From contig NZ_JALIDZ010000004.1 in the NCBI RefSeq assembly GCF_025397915.1, forward strand, positions 434,001 through 498,000: a DNA stretch of 64,000 nucleotides, in the 5' to 3' direction. The stretch comes from Microbaculum marinisediminis. GTDB lineage: Bacteria; Pseudomonadota; Alphaproteobacteria; Rhizobiales; Tepidamorphaceae. Shown one piece after another: positions 50,217 to 58,272 of the stretch (position 1 is the stretch's first letter; each line of letters begins with the position of its first letter). The position numbers and the translations under genes were made by a program. The notes beneath the pieces are model-generated. The model did no database searches, was not told the origin of the DNA, and was given only the letters and a program-made list of their open reading frames with translations.

Positions 50217-50247
50217 GGGCTACTCGGCGGTCTGAGCCCTACTCGGC
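50210..50247. repeat. 19-bp tandem duplication holding both convergent stop codons
   Basis: GGTCTGAGGGCTACTCGGC (50210-50228) and GGTCTGAGCCCTACTCGGC (50229-50247), two mismatches. The TGA of the DUF3237 gene is in copy one; the CTA (TAG on the minus strand) of iorB is in copy two. Confidence 0.85.
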
Positions 50248-51750
50248 GGCCTGACGGTCCGGCGCGAGCGAGGCCCAGAGGCTCCGGATCGTTTCGTCGA
50301 GGGCCGTTCCCTCCGGGTCCTTCAGCGCGGCAAGCCGGGCGTTCAGCACCGCGTCGGCGAAGGCCGGGGCTGGCAGGTCGCCGGCCAGGGCGGGCTCGAC
50401 GACGCGCGCGACGATGCGGTCGAAATTGCGGCGACCGCGCTTGTGCGTGTCGGCATAGCCCTTCACCAGGCCGCCGATGGCGACGACCTCGCGCGCCGCG
50501 TCCGGATCGACCGCGAGCGTCCGGTCGATCAGGTCGAGCCAGTGTTCGATCCAGGCCTGCTCGTCGGCGTAGCGCAGGGTGCGGCGGCGCCAGCCGCGCA
50601 GGCTCGCGAGCGTCTTCAGCCGGATGAACCCGCCGAACCGCGTCGCCGTGACGTTCATCGGGATCGACCATGTGTCCCAGCCGCGGCCGGCGAGAAAGGC
50701 CAGCGCGCGCCGCGCCAGCGCGGGCGGCAGCAGCGAGAAAAGCTCCTCGGGCCCCGGCTTCATATACTCGATCACGTCGACGATCTCGCCGGACCGCGCC
50801 CCGGCCTCGGCCCGGACCTGTTCGAGCCTTGCCGCGGTGAGCTTCAGCTGGGCGACGCGGATCGTGTCCTCGAAGGCCATGCGCAACGCCAGGATGCGGG
50901 CGAGCTCGGACAGGAATGCCGCATCCGCGCCGGGCCGGCCGGCGAAGCGCTTCAGGCGGTCGGCATAGAGCGCGACGTACGCGTCGTCCTGATAATCGGC
51001 GAGGCGCTGCGATCCCGCCTCGATCATCGGCAGGGCGCCTTCGGGATAGAGCGACCAGGCTTCCGGGACCGGCCGCACCGCGTCTTCGGTTTCGGCGGCC
51101 GGGGCGGGCCCCGTCCTGCCGGTTCGGGCGAACGCGAGCCCGGCCTCGAACCCGCGCAGATTCGACTCGACCGCCTTGGCGCCGGCGCGGATCGCGTCAC
51201 GATAGCGGTCCGGCGGGATCGGCAGGGTGCCGGAGCCGGCGAGCGCGCCGAGCAGGACGGCGTTCAGATGGCTGCCGGCGGCCTGGGCGATCGCGCCGAG
51301 ATCGCCGAGCAATGCGGTTTTCGAATAGCGTTCGACGATCGCCTCGAGCCGGTCGGGATCGAGGCGTCCGTCGCCCATGGAAGCCTTCTCCGCCACGGTA
51401 TAGACGCGGCGGACGACGCCGATCAGCACGGTCCGATCGGGCGTCGCGTAGCCCGTCTGCACCATACGCGCGGTCTCGAGCAGTTCCGTGCCGATCAGCA
51501 CGTCGACGCGGCCGGGCGCCGGATTGAGCGCCAGCACCGGCTTGCCCGGCCCGCGCCCGGCGTCGGCGTGGGGCAGGATCTCGAGGTAGTAGGTCGTGGC
51601 GCCGGTGCGCTGGGCGACGCCGGGGATCGACGTGCGCTGGGCATGGAGGCCCTCGGCGACGGCGGCATCGGCGATCCAGCCGGCAAGCACGCCGCCGCCT
51701 TCGCCGCCGAGCGCGGAGATCAGGACCGTGATCGGCGAGCCGGCCGACAT
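50239..51750 (-). CDS. iorB: Indolepyruvate:ferredoxin oxidoreductase beta subunit, extended
   Basis: 503 residues, longer than the roughly 200 of archaeal IorB. The gamma-type domain is at the start (LISALGGEGGGVLAGWIADAA, RTSIPGVAQRTGATTYYLEI, LIGTELLETARMV, NAVLLGALAGSG), followed by a 280-residue helical extension (AYVALYADRLKRF, VDVIEYMKPGPEELFSLLP, IPMNVTATRFGGFIRLKTLASL). With IorA it decarboxylates aryl-pyruvates to aryl-acetyl-CoA, reducing ferredoxin. One base separates it from iorA. Confidence 0.88.
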   Translation of the reverse strand: MSAGSPITVLISALGGEGGGVLAGWIADAAVAEGLHAQRTSIPGVAQRTGATTYYLEILPHADAGRGPGKPVLALNPAPGRVDVLIGTELLETARMVQTGYATPDRTVLIGVVRRVYTVAEKASMGDGRLDPDRLEAIVERYSKTALLGDLGAIAQAAGSHLNAVLLGALAGSGTLPIPPDRYRDAIRAGAKAVESNLRGFEAGLAFARTGRTGPAPAAETEDAVRPVPEAWSLYPEGALPMIEAGSQRLADYQDDAYVALYADRLKRFAGRPGADAAFLSELARILALRMAFEDTIRVAQLKLTAARLEQVRAEAGARSGEIVDVIEYMKPGPEELFSLLPPALARRALAFLAGRGWDTWSIPMNVTATRFGGFIRLKTLASLRGWRRRTLRYADEQAWIEHWLDLIDRTLAVDPDAAREVVAIGGLVKGYADTHKRGRRNFDRIVARVVEPALAGDLPAPAFADAVLNARLAALKDPEGTALDETIRSLWASLAPDRQAAE

Positions 51751-51751
51751 G

Positions 51752-53926
51752 TCACTCGGCCGGAATGGGGTGCGGCGCCGGGCGGGCGTCGGGTTCGGAC
51801 GGTGCCGCGTAGCCGCCGAACAGCCGGATCAACGCCGAGGACAGCCGCGCCCGGAACCGGTCCCAGCCGTTCGGGTTCCGGATGATCTCGAGGCGGGCGA
51901 AGGACGGGCAGAGCTGGGCGGCGTGGGACACCTCGCCGCACAGGCCGCAGCCGACGCAGTCGTTGTTCACATGGGCGACCGGCTCGGGTTTCAGCGGGTC
52001 GGTGCTGGGCTTCACCGTCAGCGACGGGCAGCCGGACAGACGGATGCAGGCATGGTCGCCGGTGCAGACGTCGGGATCGACCCAGAAGCGGGTGCGTACG
52101 ACGCGCCTGCCTTCGGCGACCGCCCGGGCCTCGGCCGGGCGGACGCGGCGCTGGCGGGCGAGCTGGCACTCGCCGTCGGCGATGATGACCTTCGGGCCCG
52201 TCTCGTCGCTGCCGAGCGCCTCCCGCAGCGTCTTTCGCATGGTCGACACGGAATAGGAGTGGACCGTGCGGACCCAGCCGACGCCGAGGCTCTTCAGCGC
52301 GCTCTCGATATCGAGCCCGCGGCCGCGCCCCTCCCCCTGCGGCCGCGAGGAGGGCACGTCCTGGACGCCGGTGGCGCTGGTATAGCCGTTCTTGAAGATG
52401 ACGAGGACGGAATCGTCCTGGTTGAAGACCGAGCCGGCGACGCCGGTGAGCAATCCGTTGTGCCAGAAGCCGCCGTCGCCCATGACGCTGAGCGGGCGCT
52501 TCGCCTGGGTGCCCGAAACCGCCGCGTTCGAGGCGAGCGACATGCCGTAGCCGAGGATCGAGTTGCCCTGGCTGAACGGCGGGAAGGTCGCGAAAGCGTG
52601 ACAGCCGATGTCGGCGGCGACGTGGACCGGGCCGGTTTCCTCCCGCAGGAGCTTCATCGCCGAGAAGACGGGGCGCTCCGGGCAGCCGGTGCAGAAGGTC
52701 GGCGGGCGCGGCGGCAGCGGCGCCGTGAGGTCCCGGGCGACGGATTGCGAATGGGCCTCGACGGCCTCGACCCATTCGTCGAGGCGGGCGGCTTCGTTGC
52801 GGCCGTAGCGCGACAGGAAGGCGGACAGGCCCCTGGCGACCACGACCGGCGAATACTCGCCGGCCATCGGCAGCACGTCCTTGCCGTGCAGTTTCGTATC
52901 GAGTTCGGCGTGGCGCAGGATCTGGCCGATCTCCTTCTCGATGAAGTCCGGGCCGCCTTCCTCGACCACCAGAACGGCGCGCTTGTCGGCGCAGAAGGCC
53001 GCGATCTCCTCGGGGACCAGCGGATAGGTCACGTTGAGGACGTGGGTCGGGATGCCGATGTCGCCATAGGCGTCGGAGAGCCCTGCCTCGGCGAGGCGGC
53101 CGTTGAGGACGTTGAACATACCGCCCTGGACGATGATGCCGATATCGCCGTCCTCCGGCCCCAGCGTCTCGTTGAGGCGGTTGTCACGGATGAAGGCGCG
53201 GGCCGCCGGTAGTCGGCGGTTCACCTTGTCGGCCTCCTGGACGAAGGTTACCGGCGGATGGCTAAGACGGGCATAGTCGAACCCGGCGGGTTCGGCGAAG
53301 CGGTTGGTCGCCGAGTGCTCGGACCGCCGGTTGTCGGATGCCTCGAAGGCGCCGAAGACATGGCAGGCGCGGATGCGCAACTCGAGAATGACCGGCGTCG
53401 AACTTGCCTCCGACAGCGCGAAGCCCTTCTCCACCATGCGCACGATGGTCGGCAGCTCCGGGCGCGGGTCGAGCAGCCATACCGACGACTTCACCGCGTA
53501 GGCCTGGGTGCGCTCCTGGATGACGCTGGCGCCTTCGCCGTAATCCTCGCCGACGATGATCATGGCGCCGCCGATGACGCCGGCCGACGACAGGTTCGAC
53601 AGAGCGTCGGCGGCGACATTGGTGCCGACGATCGACTTCCAGGTCACGGCACCGCGCAGGGGATAGTTGATCGAGGCGGCGAGCATCGCCGCGGCCGCGG
53701 CCTCGTTGGTGCAGGTCTCCAGACGAATGCCGAGTTCGCCGAGCAGGTCCTCGGCCTGCAGCAGCACATCGAGCAGATGGCTGACCGGCGCGCCCTGATA
53801 GCCGCCGACATAAGCGACGCCGGACTGCAGGAGCGCCTTGGTGACGGCCATGATGCCCTCGCCGTGGAAGGTGTCTCCTGCACCGAGCCTCAGCGTCTCG
53901 ATCTCGCGATGAAACGAGACTTCCAT
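51752..53926 (-). CDS. iorA: Indolepyruvate:ferredoxin oxidoreductase alpha subunit
   Basis: 724 residues. Pyrimidine-binding domain (GEGIMAVTKALLQSGVAYVGGYQGAP, ETCTNEAAAAAMLAASINYP), ThDP-binding domain (FCTGCPERPVFSAMK, IGCHAFATFPPFSQGNSILGYGMSLA, MGDGGFWHNGL, with VIFKNGYTSATG), and a C-terminal ferredoxin-like end (VCTGDHACIRLSGCP, then CVGCGLCGEVSHAAQLCP). The first cluster site has fewer cysteines than a full CxxCxxCxxxC. ATG 53926 is preferred, with GGGAGCAGGA upstream; longer starts reach into the MarR spacer. Divergent from marR. Confidence 0.9.
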   Translation of the reverse strand: MEVSFHREIETLRLGAGDTFHGEGIMAVTKALLQSGVAYVGGYQGAPVSHLLDVLLQAEDLLGELGIRLETCTNEAAAAAMLAASINYPLRGAVTWKSIVGTNVAADALSNLSSAGVIGGAMIIVGEDYGEGASVIQERTQAYAVKSSVWLLDPRPELPTIVRMVEKGFALSEASSTPVILELRIRACHVFGAFEASDNRRSEHSATNRFAEPAGFDYARLSHPPVTFVQEADKVNRRLPAARAFIRDNRLNETLGPEDGDIGIIVQGGMFNVLNGRLAEAGLSDAYGDIGIPTHVLNVTYPLVPEEIAAFCADKRAVLVVEEGGPDFIEKEIGQILRHAELDTKLHGKDVLPMAGEYSPVVVARGLSAFLSRYGRNEAARLDEWVEAVEAHSQSVARDLTAPLPPRPPTFCTGCPERPVFSAMKLLREETGPVHVAADIGCHAFATFPPFSQGNSILGYGMSLASNAAVSGTQAKRPLSVMGDGGFWHNGLLTGVAGSVFNQDDSVLVIFKNGYTSATGVQDVPSSRPQGEGRGRGLDIESALKSLGVGWVRTVHSYSVSTMRKTLREALGSDETGPKVIIADGECQLARQRRVRPAEARAVAEGRRVVRTRFWVDPDVCTGDHACIRLSGCPSLTVKPSTDPLKPEPVAHVNNDCVGCGLCGEVSHAAQLCPSFARLEIIRNPNGWDRFRARLSSALIRLFGGYAAPSEPDARPAPHPIPAE

Positions 53927-53994
53927 TCCTGCTCCCTTCCACCGCGCGTGGGGCGGTGATCGACGGCACTGTACGAATGCGGTAGTAGCGACGT

Positions 53995-54007
53995 CAAACA
54001 GTTGTGG
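53995..54007. promoter_or_regulatory. Shared CAAAC-W-GTT motif, site 3
   Basis: CAAACAGTTGTGG in the spacer between iorA and marR, 69 bases from iorA and 112 from marR. It matches site 2 at 12 of 13 bases and is the natural spot for the MarR protein to control both genes. Confidence 0.5.
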
Positions 54008-54118
54008 CCACGCACTATCGGTTCTAGGTTGCCTTGCGGGATTCGGTCCGGCCGGCATGGACTGACATGGCTGCCGGCCCGAACGAGCCGCGGCGGAAGC
54101 GAAGGTGTGTCGATCGAG

Positions 54119-54583
54119 ATGGATATTCCGGTACAGGCGGCGGACAGCGGGCGTGACATCGACTACGACGAACTGCCGAACTACATCGGCTATCTGCTGC
54201 GGCGCGCGCAGGCCAACGTCTTTCGCGAGTTCGAGCGGTCGCTGGGGGATATCGGGCTGACGCCGGGGGCGTTCGGCCTTCTGATGTTGATCCGCGCCAA
54301 TCCGGGCATCACGCAGATGGAACTCGCCAATGCCTTCGGGATCGACAAGTCGACGCTGACGCCGGTCCTCAACCGGCTGGAGCAGAGCGCACTCGTCCGC
54401 CGCGAGCAACTCGCCCATGACCGGCGCTACAACGCCCTGTTCTTCGAGGACGCCCAGGAGGCGTTCTTCGATCGCGCGCGGACGCGGGTCCGCGACTTCG
54501 AGCAGTCGGTCGCCGATCGTCTATCGGACGACGAGCAGCGCGAACTGGTGCGTCTGATCGGCAAGATCCAGGCGGACGCCTGA
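54119..54583 (+). CDS. MarR family transcriptional regulator
   Basis: 154 residues. Winged helix-turn-helix: LGDIGLTPGAFGLLMLIRANPG, then recognition segment TQMELANAFGIDKSTLTPVL, wing QLAHDRRYNALFF, and dimerising end helices. MarR repressors of aromatic genes (for example CouR, which senses p-coumaroyl-CoA) release DNA on binding a small aromatic or its CoA ester. Divergent from iorA, it is the likely regulator of the 42.6-54 kb island. GTG 54107 with GGAAG upstream is an alternative start. Confidence 0.92.
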   Translation: MDIPVQAADSGRDIDYDELPNYIGYLLRRAQANVFREFERSLGDIGLTPGAFGLLMLIRANPGITQMELANAFGIDKSTLTPVLNRLEQSALVRREQLAHDRRYNALFFEDAQEAFFDRARTRVRDFEQSVADRLSDDEQRELVRLIGKIQADA

Positions 54584-54952
54584 CCCGCCGGGGGCGCCGT
54601 GCTTCTGCGCGTTCACATCCGCGGATTCCCCTGTCCTATCGATGCCCGATCATGCCGTTGCGGTAGTGCACGCAGCCAAATTTAGACGTGTCCGATCCCG
54701 TTCGGATGGTCGGGATCAGCTGTTTTGGTGATGCTTCGCAGCATTCCAGACATACGGATTTTGCCTAATTGCATCCTTGGTTAACATTAATAATTATTGT
54801 TAGCGGACGTACACTTACCCCTCTTTCTGCTGACTGAAGACAGCCCTTTGGGGGGCGAAAGGCGACCTATCGTTCTGGCTCCGCTCGATAATTCGATGGC
54901 AGCGGATAGTTCAAAATGATAGTATTTTGTTAAGCTTAATAGGGTGCGGACG
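54584..54952. other. AT-rich intergenic region before the RpfF-like gene
   Basis: 369 bases, distinctly AT-rich compared with the rest. It contains a near-perfect palindrome (54782-54802), TTAACATTAATAATTA-type runs, TAGTATTTTGTTAAGCTTAAT (-10-like TTAAGCTTAA) close to the start, and GGCGAAAGGCGACC. No gene is seen. The low GC and several A/T tracts suggest a bent, regulated promoter. Confidence 0.6.
54782..54802. promoter_or_regulatory. AT-rich near-perfect palindrome
   Basis: A 21-base palindrome reading TAACA, TTAATAATTAT, TGTTA, with ten pairs, one of them mismatched, about the central base. It is 150 bases ahead of the RpfF-like start and could bind a dimeric regulator. Confidence 0.5.
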
Positions 54953-55909
54953 ATGTCGAGTTTTGTGTCGCTAGTAGATCGCTCGTTTTCTCGCAAACAA
55001 CCATCACCTTCCAAAAGCCGGCCGTCGCCAGTCCAGCCAGCCGCGCCGGGGACGGAGTCAACCGAGCGTCCACTTTTCGGCCTCGAGCAGCTCGAGGTGG
55101 ACTGGGAGGAGGAAACGGGAACCCTGTGGACGTTCATGCGTCCGCATAACCGACCCAGCTATAATCCTGAGTTTCTGAAGGATTTCGAGGCGTGGCAGAT
55201 CGGTATCCAGTCGATGTTCGCCGGGCAGGAGGACGAACTCCGCTATCTCGTTCTCGGGTCGCGCTGGCCCGGCGTCTACAGCCTGGGTGGTGATCTCGAC
55301 CTGTTCGCCAGACACATCCGCGACCGCGACCGCGAGGCCCTGGTCGAGTATGGCCGCACCTGCGTGCGGATCCTGCATCGCAACATCGAAACGCTGGACC
55401 TGCCGGTGGTGACGATCGCGCTGGCGCAGGGGGACGCGCTGGGCGGCGGTTTCGAGTCGCTGCTGTCGTTCAACGTCGTCATCGCCGAACGGGGCATCAA
55501 GTTCGGCTTTCCCGAAAGCTTGTTCGGGTTGTTTCCGGGCATGGGCGCCTACAGCCTGCTGGCGCGCCGCATCGGTGCGGCGAAGGCCGAGGAGATGATC
55601 CTGTCCGGCAATTCCTTCACGGCCGAGGAGATGCACGACCTGGGCATCGTCCATATCCTGGCCGAACCCGGCGAGGGCGTTGAGGCGACGCGGGCCTATA
55701 TCCAGAAGCAGCGGTGGCGGCGCAACGGCTCGCGCGCCGTCTACATGACGGGCCGCCAGGTCGATCCGCTTCCGCTCGAGGAGCTCGAGCGGATCGTGGA
55801 GATCTGGGCGGATGCCTGCCTGCTGCTGAGCGATCGCGATCTGCGCCTGATGGAACGGCTGGTCGCCGCGCAGGACCGGCTGCGCAGTGTCCCGCTAGCA
55901 GCGGAATAG
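54953..55909 (+). CDS. RpfF-like crotonase, probable diffusible signal factor (DSF) synthase
   Basis: 318 residues. A Ser/Pro-rich leader of about 40 precedes a crotonase domain whose features are those of RpfF of Xanthomonas and Burkholderia: LPVVTIALAQGDALGGGFES with Glu168, GFPESLFGLFPGMGAYSLL with Glu188 (20 apart, as Glu141 and Glu161 of Xanthomonas RpfF), and a C-terminal end IWADACLLLSDRDLRLMERL almost like RpfF. RpfF makes cis-2-unsaturated fatty acid signals from 3-hydroxyacyl-ACP. ATG 54953 follows AGGGTG. It is convergent with a GGDEF/EAL gene, as rpfF is with rpfR. Product not proven. Confidence 0.82.
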   Translation: MSSFVSLVDRSFSRKQPSPSKSRPSPVQPAAPGTESTERPLFGLEQLEVDWEEETGTLWTFMRPHNRPSYNPEFLKDFEAWQIGIQSMFAGQEDELRYLVLGSRWPGVYSLGGDLDLFARHIRDRDREALVEYGRTCVRILHRNIETLDLPVVTIALAQGDALGGGFESLLSFNVVIAERGIKFGFPESLFGLFPGMGAYSLLARRIGAAKAEEMILSGNSFTAEEMHDLGIVHILAEPGEGVEATRAYIQKQRWRRNGSRAVYMTGRQVDPLPLEELERIVEIWADACLLLSDRDLRLMERLVAAQDRLRSVPLAAE

Positions 55910-55932
55910 AAGCCGGGGGACAGGTGCGGCGC

Positions 55933-58272
55933 TCAGGCGACCGCGACGAGGTTCGCCCGCTGCGCGGGCGAGGCCTGCAGCTTCTCCATGATGGCGTCGA
56001 ACGGCATGGCGCGGCCGAAGAGATAGCCCTGCCCCTCGTGGCAGCCCTCTTCCTTGACCTGACGCAGCTGTTCCTCCGTCTCGATGCCTTCGGCGACCAC
56101 GATCATGTTCAGGCTGTTGCCGAGACCGGCGACGGCGCGGACGATCGACGGGGCATCCTGATCGCGACCCAGATCGGCGATGAACGACCGGTCGATCTTG
56201 ATCTTGTTGAACGGGTATTTGCGCAAGTAGTTCAGCGACGAGTATCCCGTGCCGAAGTCGTCGAGCGAGATCCGCACGCCGAGTACCTTAAGCTGCTCCA
56301 TCGTGTAGAGCGTGCTCTCGCTTTCCTCGAGCAGCACGCGCTCGGTGATCTCGAGATCGAGGCACTGGGCCGGCAGGCCCGACTTGGCCAGGGCCGAGAC
56401 CACGCGGGCACCCAGCGACCGGTCGCGGAACTGGACCGGCGACAGGTTGACCGCGACCTTGGTGCCGGCAGGCCATTTGGCCGCGTCCTGGCAGGCGCGC
56501 TGCAGGACCCATTCACCGATCGAGATGATGAGCCCGGTCTCCTCCGCGATCGGAACGAACTCCGCCGGCGAGATGTAGCCGCGCTCGGGATGGTGCCAGC
56601 GCAGCAACGCCTCGCAGGTTGTGATCTCTCCGGTCTTCAGGTCGATCAGCGGCTGATAGAAGACCTCGATTTCGTTGCGTGACAGCGCGTCGCGCAGGTC
56701 GAGTTCGAGCGCGCGGCGGGCCTGGGCGCGCTCCTCCATCTCCGCGGCGAAGAAACGGTGCTCGCCGCCGCCATTGCCCTTGGCGGCATAGAGCGCCATG
56801 TCGGCGTTCTTGATCAACTCGTCGGCGTCGATGCCGTCCTGCGGCGCGACCGCGATGCCGATCGAGGCGCCGATGTCGATGCGGTGCCCCTCGACGTCGA
56901 ACGGCACGGACAGTGCCTTCACCAAGCGGCGGGCGAGGCGCCCGGAATCCTGCCGGCGCGACGGGGTCGACTGCAGGATGACGAACTCGTCGCCGCCGAA
57001 GCGGGCGATCATGTCTCCGGTGCGCACGACCGAGCCGAGGCGGCGCGACACCTCCTTGAGCAGCTTGTCGCCGATGGGATGTCCAAGCGTGTCGTTGACC
57101 TGCTTGAACCGGTCGATATCGATCAGGTGCAGGGCGATCTGATTGCCGCCTTCGCGCACTATCTCCAGCATCTCGTTGATGCGCTCGCGGAAATGGTTGC
57201 GGTTCGGCAGGCCGGTCAGGTCGTCGTAGCGGGCGAGATAGGCGATCCTCTCCTGGGCGGCCTTGCGCTCGGTGACGTCCTCGAGGATGACCACCGAGCC
57301 GCCGTCGGCCATCATCCGGCGCGACAGCGCCATGATGCGCTCGCCGTCGACGGAGACGAAGACCTGGCCGTGGTGGTCCTGCCTCAGGCCGCGGGTGAGT
57401 TCGTAGACGATCGAACGGACGCCCCGGCCGGAATGATTGCCCGCACGGATCGAGTACCGGACCAGGTCGCGGATCGTCGTGCCGACCTTGATCGGCGCAT
57501 CGAACAGGTTGAGCAGCTCGATGAAGCGGGCGTTCCACACCTTCAGCCTGTCCTGATCGTCGAACATGCACAGGCCGTGCGACATGTTGTTGAGGGCGAT
57601 GTCGAAACGGTTGGCCTGCTCCTCGTAGCGGGCCGCCAGCGCAGCTTCCTTGCGCGTCATCGTCAGCGCCTGAATGATGATGTCGCGAATGGACAGGGTG
57701 ATGTCGACCATCCCGTAGATGAACATCAGGATGACGAAACCGAGCGCCTTGTGGAGCCAGTCCGGATAGATCAGCAGCGAGATCGCAAGCGGCAGCGTGG
57801 TGAGCGTGAGCTGGCCGACCGCGATGATCGGTCGGCCGGCGTTGCGGCCCGAAATGGCGGCGGCATATCCCGCTGCGGTGGTGGCGACCGCCAGATGCAG
57901 AGTTGCGTCCGTGGTATGCGTCAGCGTGATGTAGCAGAGCAGCCCGAGAAGCGCGGAGAAGCCCCAGGCGCCGTACTCGTAGATTCGTTCCCAGATTTGC
58001 GTGGCGGCGACATCGTCGGCAAGCTTGCGGCGCTTGTAGATGACGGCGGAGACGACACGCAGCAGCCCGACCGCGAAAATCGCGATAGACGTGGCCAGGA
58101 TCGCGGGATCGTTCGCCTTGATCGCGACGGCCGCGCCGATAATGCCGCACGCGATCGCGCCCACTGCCAGGGACGACAGCGGTGCGAACAACGACTCAAC
58201 CAGCGCCGCGCGAATCTCAGGCGAGAGTTGCGCGTCGTCTTGGCGTGTCGCGAGGAGTCTGCGTAGGAGCAT
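55933..58272 (-). CDS. Six-helix membrane, PAS, GGDEF and EAL protein
   Basis: 779 residues. Six membrane helices (about 30-50, 57-78, 102-118, 124-141, 147-169, 174-195), a PAS domain (about 220-340, NMSHGLCMFDDQDRLKVWNARF), an intact GGDEF (426-430) with the RxxD inhibitory site Arg417-Asp420, and an EAL domain with EAL 554-556, ITERVLLEE, DDFGTGYSS, KIDRSFI and EGIETEEQ. All catalytic motifs for making and breaking c-di-GMP are present. It is convergent with and 23 bases from the RpfF-like gene. The membrane domain is not one I can name. Confidence 0.93.
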   Translation of the reverse strand: MLLRRLLATRQDDAQLSPEIRAALVESLFAPLSSLAVGAIACGIIGAAVAIKANDPAILATSIAIFAVGLLRVVSAVIYKRRKLADDVAATQIWERIYEYGAWGFSALLGLLCYITLTHTTDATLHLAVATTAAGYAAAISGRNAGRPIIAVGQLTLTTLPLAISLLIYPDWLHKALGFVILMFIYGMVDITLSIRDIIIQALTMTRKEAALAARYEEQANRFDIALNNMSHGLCMFDDQDRLKVWNARFIELLNLFDAPIKVGTTIRDLVRYSIRAGNHSGRGVRSIVYELTRGLRQDHHGQVFVSVDGERIMALSRRMMADGGSVVILEDVTERKAAQERIAYLARYDDLTGLPNRNHFRERINEMLEIVREGGNQIALHLIDIDRFKQVNDTLGHPIGDKLLKEVSRRLGSVVRTGDMIARFGGDEFVILQSTPSRRQDSGRLARRLVKALSVPFDVEGHRIDIGASIGIAVAPQDGIDADELIKNADMALYAAKGNGGGEHRFFAAEMEERAQARRALELDLRDALSRNEIEVFYQPLIDLKTGEITTCEALLRWHHPERGYISPAEFVPIAEETGLIISIGEWVLQRACQDAAKWPAGTKVAVNLSPVQFRDRSLGARVVSALAKSGLPAQCLDLEITERVLLEESESTLYTMEQLKVLGVRISLDDFGTGYSSLNYLRKYPFNKIKIDRSFIADLGRDQDAPSIVRAVAGLGNSLNMIVVAEGIETEEQLRQVKEEGCHEGQGYLFGRAMPFDAIMEKLQASPAQRANLVAVA

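Follow-up and report, generated by a model that had tools for sequence, protein, structure and literature searches.

The genes described here form a convergent pair in a stretch of 64,000 nucleotides (hereafter the window) from the alphaproteobacterium Microbaculum marinisediminis (contig NZ_JALIDZ010000004.1, positions 434,001 to 498,000), which is part of a 559-kb contig in a 5.1-Mb genome carrying nine EAL genes. One gene (54953..55909, forward strand, ATG start, with an alternative in-frame GTG start at 54944) encodes a 318-aa crotonase of the RpfF/DfsA family, a probable synthase of cis-2-unsaturated fatty acids of the diffusible signal factor (DSF) family. The other (55933..58272, reverse strand) encodes a 779-aa protein, its probable partner or receptor, in which six predicted transmembrane helices precede PAS, GGDEF and EAL domains, and which probably both synthesises and degrades the second messenger cyclic di-GMP (c-di-GMP). 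The two stop codons are separated by a spacer of 23 bases (55910..55932); both reading frames, their convergence and this distance had been given in an initial annotation of the window and are confirmed. The pair has the appearance of a form of DSF quorum sensing that has not been described before.

The Pfam match of the crotonase is the generic ECH_1. With the NCBIfam model PRK08788, the protein scores 366 bits (cut-off 177), and the models of ordinary hydratases give at most 77 bits. As this neutrally named model also takes the RpfF of Xanthomonadaceae (412 bits) and the RpfFs linked to RpfR (381–408 bits), it represents in effect the RpfF family. The best protein chains of known structure found by sequence are 7zq7, 3m6m, 6dgn and 5fus (1e-52 to 2e-47), the next one lying at 2.5e-16. 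An AlphaFold2 model of the crotonase (mean predicted local distance difference test score, pLDDT, of 87) leads to the same ranking: the top 12 Foldseek matches are all RpfF or DfsA chains (E 4e-25 to 2e-22; root-mean-square deviation 1.6–1.9), and the first hydratase follows at 3.5e-15, about seven orders of magnitude behind. Among these ordinary hydratases rank the structures 5wyd and 5wyb of DspI (PA0745), a crotonase of Pseudomonas aeruginosa on which a cis-2 fatty acid signal is reported to depend (PMC4504480), with about 1e-13 against 1e-25 for RpfF.

Phylogeny points in the same direction. In a tree of 148 rows, including 17 ordinary enoyl-CoA hydratases and obtained by a quick search without bootstrap, the RpfF family is split from all 17 hydratases with a support of 100 (SH-like approximate likelihood ratio test) and by a joining branch of more than 3 substitutions per column. 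The window crotonase lies on the RpfF side, beside its alphaproteobacterial relatives; the next branches hold the Xanthomonas RpfFs, those of a family of small-genome Pseudomonadota (f58) and the RpfC-linked alphaproteobacterial RpfFs, the placement of a few long branches in the tree being unsure. The RpfR-linked RpfFs are not part of the clade to which the window crotonase belongs (support 91). The proposal that this protein is not a generic hydratase is thus borne out by both the phylogeny and the structural search.

One argument of the initial annotation fails, however. It took as a mark of RpfF two glutamates spaced by 20 residues, E168 (55454..55456) and E188 (55514..55516), in a protein that contains DALGGGFES and GFPESLFGLFPGMGA. 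Both residues are indeed present, correspond to the catalytic Glu141 and Glu161 of the RpfF of Xanthomonas campestris pv. campestris (Xcc) and are invariant in 44 aligned relatives, but the same pair with the same spacing occurs in 17/17 ordinary hydratases. It therefore cannot separate RpfFs from hydratases and was rejected as evidence, a task that other residues do fulfil. W285 (55805..55807, on the forward strand like the two glutamate codons), the counterpart of Xcc Trp258, named as a substrate-pocket residue (PMC9864630), and F191 are constant in the 131 RpfF-family rows of a column comparison. Little or no variation is seen at G113, the counterpart of the Xcc G86 reported to serve the thioesterase activity of RpfF (PMC9040811), at M197 (Xcc Met170) and at F194. 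These RpfF-typical residues, together with W59, are found in the window protein and in nearly the whole clade and are absent or rare in ordinary hydratases, tryptophan not being a common residue of the 17 hydratases in the W285 column. M300 and Q307 also match RpfF-specific residues, and the C-terminal SDRDLRLMERLVAAQ, said to repeat the end of RpfF, does align with it. The assignment of the enzyme is therefore good, on grounds other than the glutamate pair; as judged from its sequence, the crotonase is very probably a DSF-family synthase, with a cis-2-unsaturated fatty acid as its putative product.

The partner protein begins with a sensor domain (residues 1–226, 57595..58272; all its domains are read on the reverse strand) that the initial annotation described as a six-helix membrane sensor replacing the soluble N-terminus of RpfR, a description that holds. 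In an AlphaFold2 model of residues 1–345 (mean pLDDT 89.7), residues 1–229 form helices throughout, the six long ones lying at 32–195, mostly at a pLDDT of about 90–97, and a helical linker joins this domain to the PAS domain. The loop charges fit cytoplasmic N- and C-termini, and the predicted periplasmic loops have just 2–3 residues; this is too little for a binding domain on the periplasmic side, and the ligand should therefore come to the protein within or out of the membrane. An R-N-A-G-R motif at the turn between helices 4 and 5, on the predicted cytoplasmic side, is kept, with few exceptions, across 40 aligned relatives, R143, A145 and R147 being present in 40/40. No Pfam family matches the domain above cut-off, a few relatives giving weak sub-threshold matches, and Foldseek matched it to no solved membrane fold, its sole match being the PAS domain. 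The six-helix domain occurs as a single copy in the genome.

Downstream of the sensor, Pfam delimits a PAS_7 domain (residues 227–341, 57250..57594), a GGDEF domain (residues 347–502, 56767..57234) and an EAL domain (residues 525–754, 56011..56700); it finds no kinase domain in the protein. Hyphomicrobial relatives have the PAS domain, and in the sphingomonad members the membrane domain runs directly into GGDEF without it, which designates the membrane domain as the shared input. The GGDEF and EAL motifs and the metal and base residues are intact in the window protein, which also has an I-site (RTGD, of the form RxxD), as the initial annotation held. The catalytic residues of both domains are retained in essentially all of the 47 related proteins of the same type and in all 17 response-regulator proteins considered below. 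The I-site is not a conserved feature, since only a minority of the 47 relatives keep RxxD (Asp in 13/47, Arg in 10/47).

The pairing itself is conserved. Relatives of the crotonase were found at 80 named loci when 84,980 species genomes were scanned, the nearest by protein sequence being from Hyphomicrobiales (Chelatococcus, 70%; Pseudolabrys, 65%). In 47 loci (type A), counted over all the sets of loci and belonging to Hyphomicrobiales and Sphingomonadales, the crotonase stands with the same membrane-GGDEF-EAL protein, with or without PAS: the genes are convergent in 39 (gaps mostly below 100 bases), divergent in 6 (the Pseudolabrys group) and in tandem in 2. In 19 others (type B), the gene that converges on the crotonase gene encodes a membrane hybrid histidine kinase, alongside which a REC-PAS-GGDEF-EAL protein is encoded in 17. 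Among relatives from the same order, a GGDEF-EAL gene lies within about 5 kb in 7/7 loci with sufficient contig. In the named set, an EAL gene is found within 10 kb of 54/80 relatives versus 1/20 ordinary crotonase loci from same-order genomes (Fisher p = 2.6e-7, with no correction for relatedness). A conserved wider operon was considered and rejected, as the flanking genes of the window pair are common to its nearest relatives only. As the survey of co-occurrence thus reveals a pair that is kept across two orders and whose linkage outlasts changes of orientation without carrying its flanks along, a functional link is favoured over frozen gene order.

Two kinds of DSF circuits provide points of comparison, and their convergent layout of rpfF and the sensor gene has been stated previously (PMC4504480, PMC6361424). 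In the RpfF/RpfR system of Burkholderia cenocepacia and Cronobacter, which uses the Burkholderia DSF (BDSF), a synthase of the same family is likewise convergent with a PAS-GGDEF-EAL protein with intact c-di-GMP sites; this layout was also seen in the RpfR-type loci inspected (L160, L161, L163, L173–L175). However, RpfR is soluble, has an FI domain at its N-terminus and binds the signal through its PAS domain (PMC6361424), whereas the window partner has no FI domain and an all-helical membrane domain in its place, its sphingomonad relatives lack PAS altogether, and the RpfR-type synthases belong outside the clade of the window crotonase. A search of the genome with the RpfR N-terminus gave just a weak 23% match, elsewhere in the genome. 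In the RpfF/RpfC/RpfG system of Xanthomonas, the synthase gene likewise converges on that of a membrane sensor with multiple helices and small loops, and the output goes through c-di-GMP (in the Xanthomonadaceae loci L157–L159, rpfF is convergent with rpfC, followed by a REC gene). However, RpfC is a hybrid histidine kinase (HisKA-HATPase-REC-Hpt) that acts on the HD-GYP protein RpfG, whereas in the window the sensor and the c-di-GMP enzyme form one protein. The genome search for an RpfC-type transmembrane sensor found none, the matches covering just the kinase end of the query. When compared with the RpfC sensor profile, the type A sensor, that of the window pair, reaches hhalign probabilities of 0.6 and 0.4%, comparable to a permease used as a control, and the possibility that it is a degenerate RpfC sensor was therefore rejected. 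The same comparison gives a probability of 100 (E 3.5e-66) for the membrane sensor of type B against that of the Xanthomonadaceae RpfCs.

The window pair is therefore distinct from the RpfR layout, as the initial annotation claimed, and from that of RpfC, but it is no lone oddity: it is one branch of a wider set of alphaproteobacterial RpfF loci that are mostly RpfC-linked in an even sample. An RpfF-family gene is present in 27/387 alphaproteobacterial genomes of this sample, and in most of these its neighbour encodes an RpfC homologue or a c-di-GMP protein. Among the 24 newly fetched loci, an RpfC-type sensor gene is found on the opposite strand in 17, four others ending too soon. Such loci, found in Methylopila, Inquilinus, Stappia, Aureimonas, Pseudovibrio, Rubritepida and others, have a convergent crotonase of the same family as that of the window, and many have a REC-PAS-GGDEF-EAL response regulator, but their sensor is a true RpfC homologue on a separate kinase. 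Most of the 17 loci from the even sample encode a REC-PAS-kinase rather than a REC-PAS-GGDEF-EAL protein. As the RpfC-type sensor is common in this sample, the ancestral alphaproteobacterial layout may have been rpfF facing rpfC, of which the membrane GGDEF-EAL form may be a simplification. In many alphaproteobacterial rpfF loci, the REC-PAS-histidine kinase gene adjoins that of the RpfC homologue, in the place that RpfG has in Xanthomonas (L206–L225, e.g. L212:4245-7559); these loci are a phosphorelay variant that encodes no c-di-GMP enzyme on the spot.

Accounts of DSF signalling exist for xanthomonads, Burkholderia and relatives, Pseudomonas and some other bacteria that carry rpf clusters, for example Methylobacillus, Methylophaga, Thiobacillus and Leptospirillum (PMC4504480), and surveys of acidophiles add Acidithiobacillus (PMC9040811). 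In the open-access literature searched, no report was found of DSF synthases or of such a receptor in Alphaproteobacteria.

The proposed mechanism is as follows. The crotonase, like RpfF and DfsA, would dehydrate a 3-hydroxyacyl-ACP (acyl carrier protein) to the cis-2-enoyl form and would then hydrolyse the thioester, which would set free a cis-2-unsaturated fatty acid. The six-helix domain, in the inner membrane, would sense this lipophilic signal inside the membrane, and its state would be passed through the helical linker and, in the window protein, the PAS domain to GGDEF and EAL, so that the signal would set the level of c-di-GMP. The membrane protein would thereby unite, in a single chain, the reception of a DSF-family signal with c-di-GMP turnover, a reading to which we assign a probability of roughly 0.55, the product, the ligand and the direction of the effect being inferred. 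It builds on the enzyme family, the intact active sites, the conserved linkage and the domain architecture, all directly observed, and on a genome search that found neither an RpfC nor an RpfR sensor. In its best reading, one membrane protein would do the work of RpfC plus RpfG in Xanthomonas or of the soluble RpfR in Burkholderia.

Several observations weigh against this reading. As the sensor is unrelated by profile to that of RpfC, its ligand specificity cannot be deduced by homology. In the type C loci (Erythrobacter, Novosphingobium and relatives), no EAL gene is found near the crotonase gene. In a sample of the class, the N-terminal domain occurs in 10 genomes, of which 4 have the crotonase (Fisher p = 0.003); these 4 include two type C genomes, in which a related membrane-GGDEF-EAL gene lies at an unlinked place, and the 6 genomes without crotonase carry a more divergent form of the domain, so that this family of domains extends beyond DSF loci. 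The distances between synthases and those between N-terminal domains are strongly correlated (Mantel r 0.93), but such a correlation is also expected under vertical inheritance alone. Lastly, the crotonase scores 203.7 bits with the NCBIfam RpfF equivalog NF053515, below its cut-off of 550. The RpfR-linked RpfFs (177–188 bits) likewise fall below this cut-off, which was therefore rejected as a test of family; the model is narrow to Xanthomonas rather than defining of the family.

Three other explanations were considered. In the first, the crotonase is a DSF-family synthase and the membrane protein is mainly its regulator rather than its receptor, which either binds the synthase and holds it back at the membrane or responds to some other cue there that determines when the signal is made. 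Receptors that bind the synthase are known, through the FI domain of RpfR (PMC6361424) or the REC domain of RpfC, seen with RpfF in structure 3m6m, and the linkage here is tight in spite of the partner having neither FI nor REC domain. However, the c-di-GMP active sites are all intact, which favours an enzymatic output, and the roles of regulator and receptor are compatible; a mainly regulatory partner is rather unlikely. Slightly less likely still is that the crotonase, as an acyl-ACP thioesterase and dehydratase, produces or modifies free fatty acids that serve the physiology of membranes or polysaccharides, without any extracellular signal, its partner sensing the resulting lipid state inside the cell. 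The thioesterase of RpfF can act promiscuously on acyl-ACPs (PMC9864630, PMC6361424), and the gene follows an XrtA/PEP-CTERM exopolysaccharide cluster in Erythrobacteraceae and Novosphingobium relatives. Against such a lipid-editing role, the RpfF pocket residues are kept and most relatives have c-di-GMP or RpfC-type signalling neighbours. As for an ordinary enoyl-CoA hydratase that stands by chance beside an unrelated c-di-GMP gene, which the generic ECH_1 match and the occurrence of the glutamate pair in hydratases would allow, phylogeny, fold search and pocket residues all lead to RpfF and the linkage is far above the control, so that this explanation is effectively excluded.

Should the membrane GGDEF-EAL protein prove to be the receptor, a fatty-acid quorum signal would be tied to c-di-GMP within one protein and a new sensor domain would be defined, in a pair that occurs in culturable Sphingomonas and Sphingobium. 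More broadly, and at a little under even odds, the pair would represent a third architecture of DSF circuits, in which one membrane-embedded receptor of a new six-helix family reads a cis-2 acid in the bilayer and directly controls c-di-GMP, across Hyphomicrobiales and Sphingomonadales and within a wide undescribed alphaproteobacterial DSF network.

Some features of the loci are worth recording besides. In the window, two genes resembling those for indolepyruvate ferredoxin oxidoreductase subunits (50239–54000, reverse strand) lie upstream of the crotonase gene and face a MarR-type regulator gene (54116–54583, forward strand), a neighbourhood kept in the same genus only. A second, partial crotonase-like match follows the tandem pair of genome G224, on the opposite strand (L170:12596-12961, reverse strand). 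In family f58, RpfF is found in many sampled genomes (L164–L166, L176, L130–L156) and an RpfC homologue faces it in 4/4 loci inspected; these RpfFs have Asp for the second catalytic Glu in 9/24 and Ala for the pocket Met in 9/24. In Erythrobacteraceae and Novosphingobium, the RpfF-family gene lies on the same strand as, and directly after, the XrtA exosortase/PEP-CTERM exopolysaccharide cluster (L104:1912-10825, with a similar arrangement in L076, L081, L087, L090–L092, L102, L113 and others), and the genes that precede it encode exosortase A, an amidotransferase, a FemAB protein and a deacetylase; this position hints at a link of a DSF-type signal with polysaccharide production. Finally, loci resembling those of Inquilinus and further alphaproteobacteria stand under the titles Mycobacterium sp. 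KBS0706 and a Terriglobia metagenome-assembled genome (L111, L121), which are probably misnamed or misbinned.

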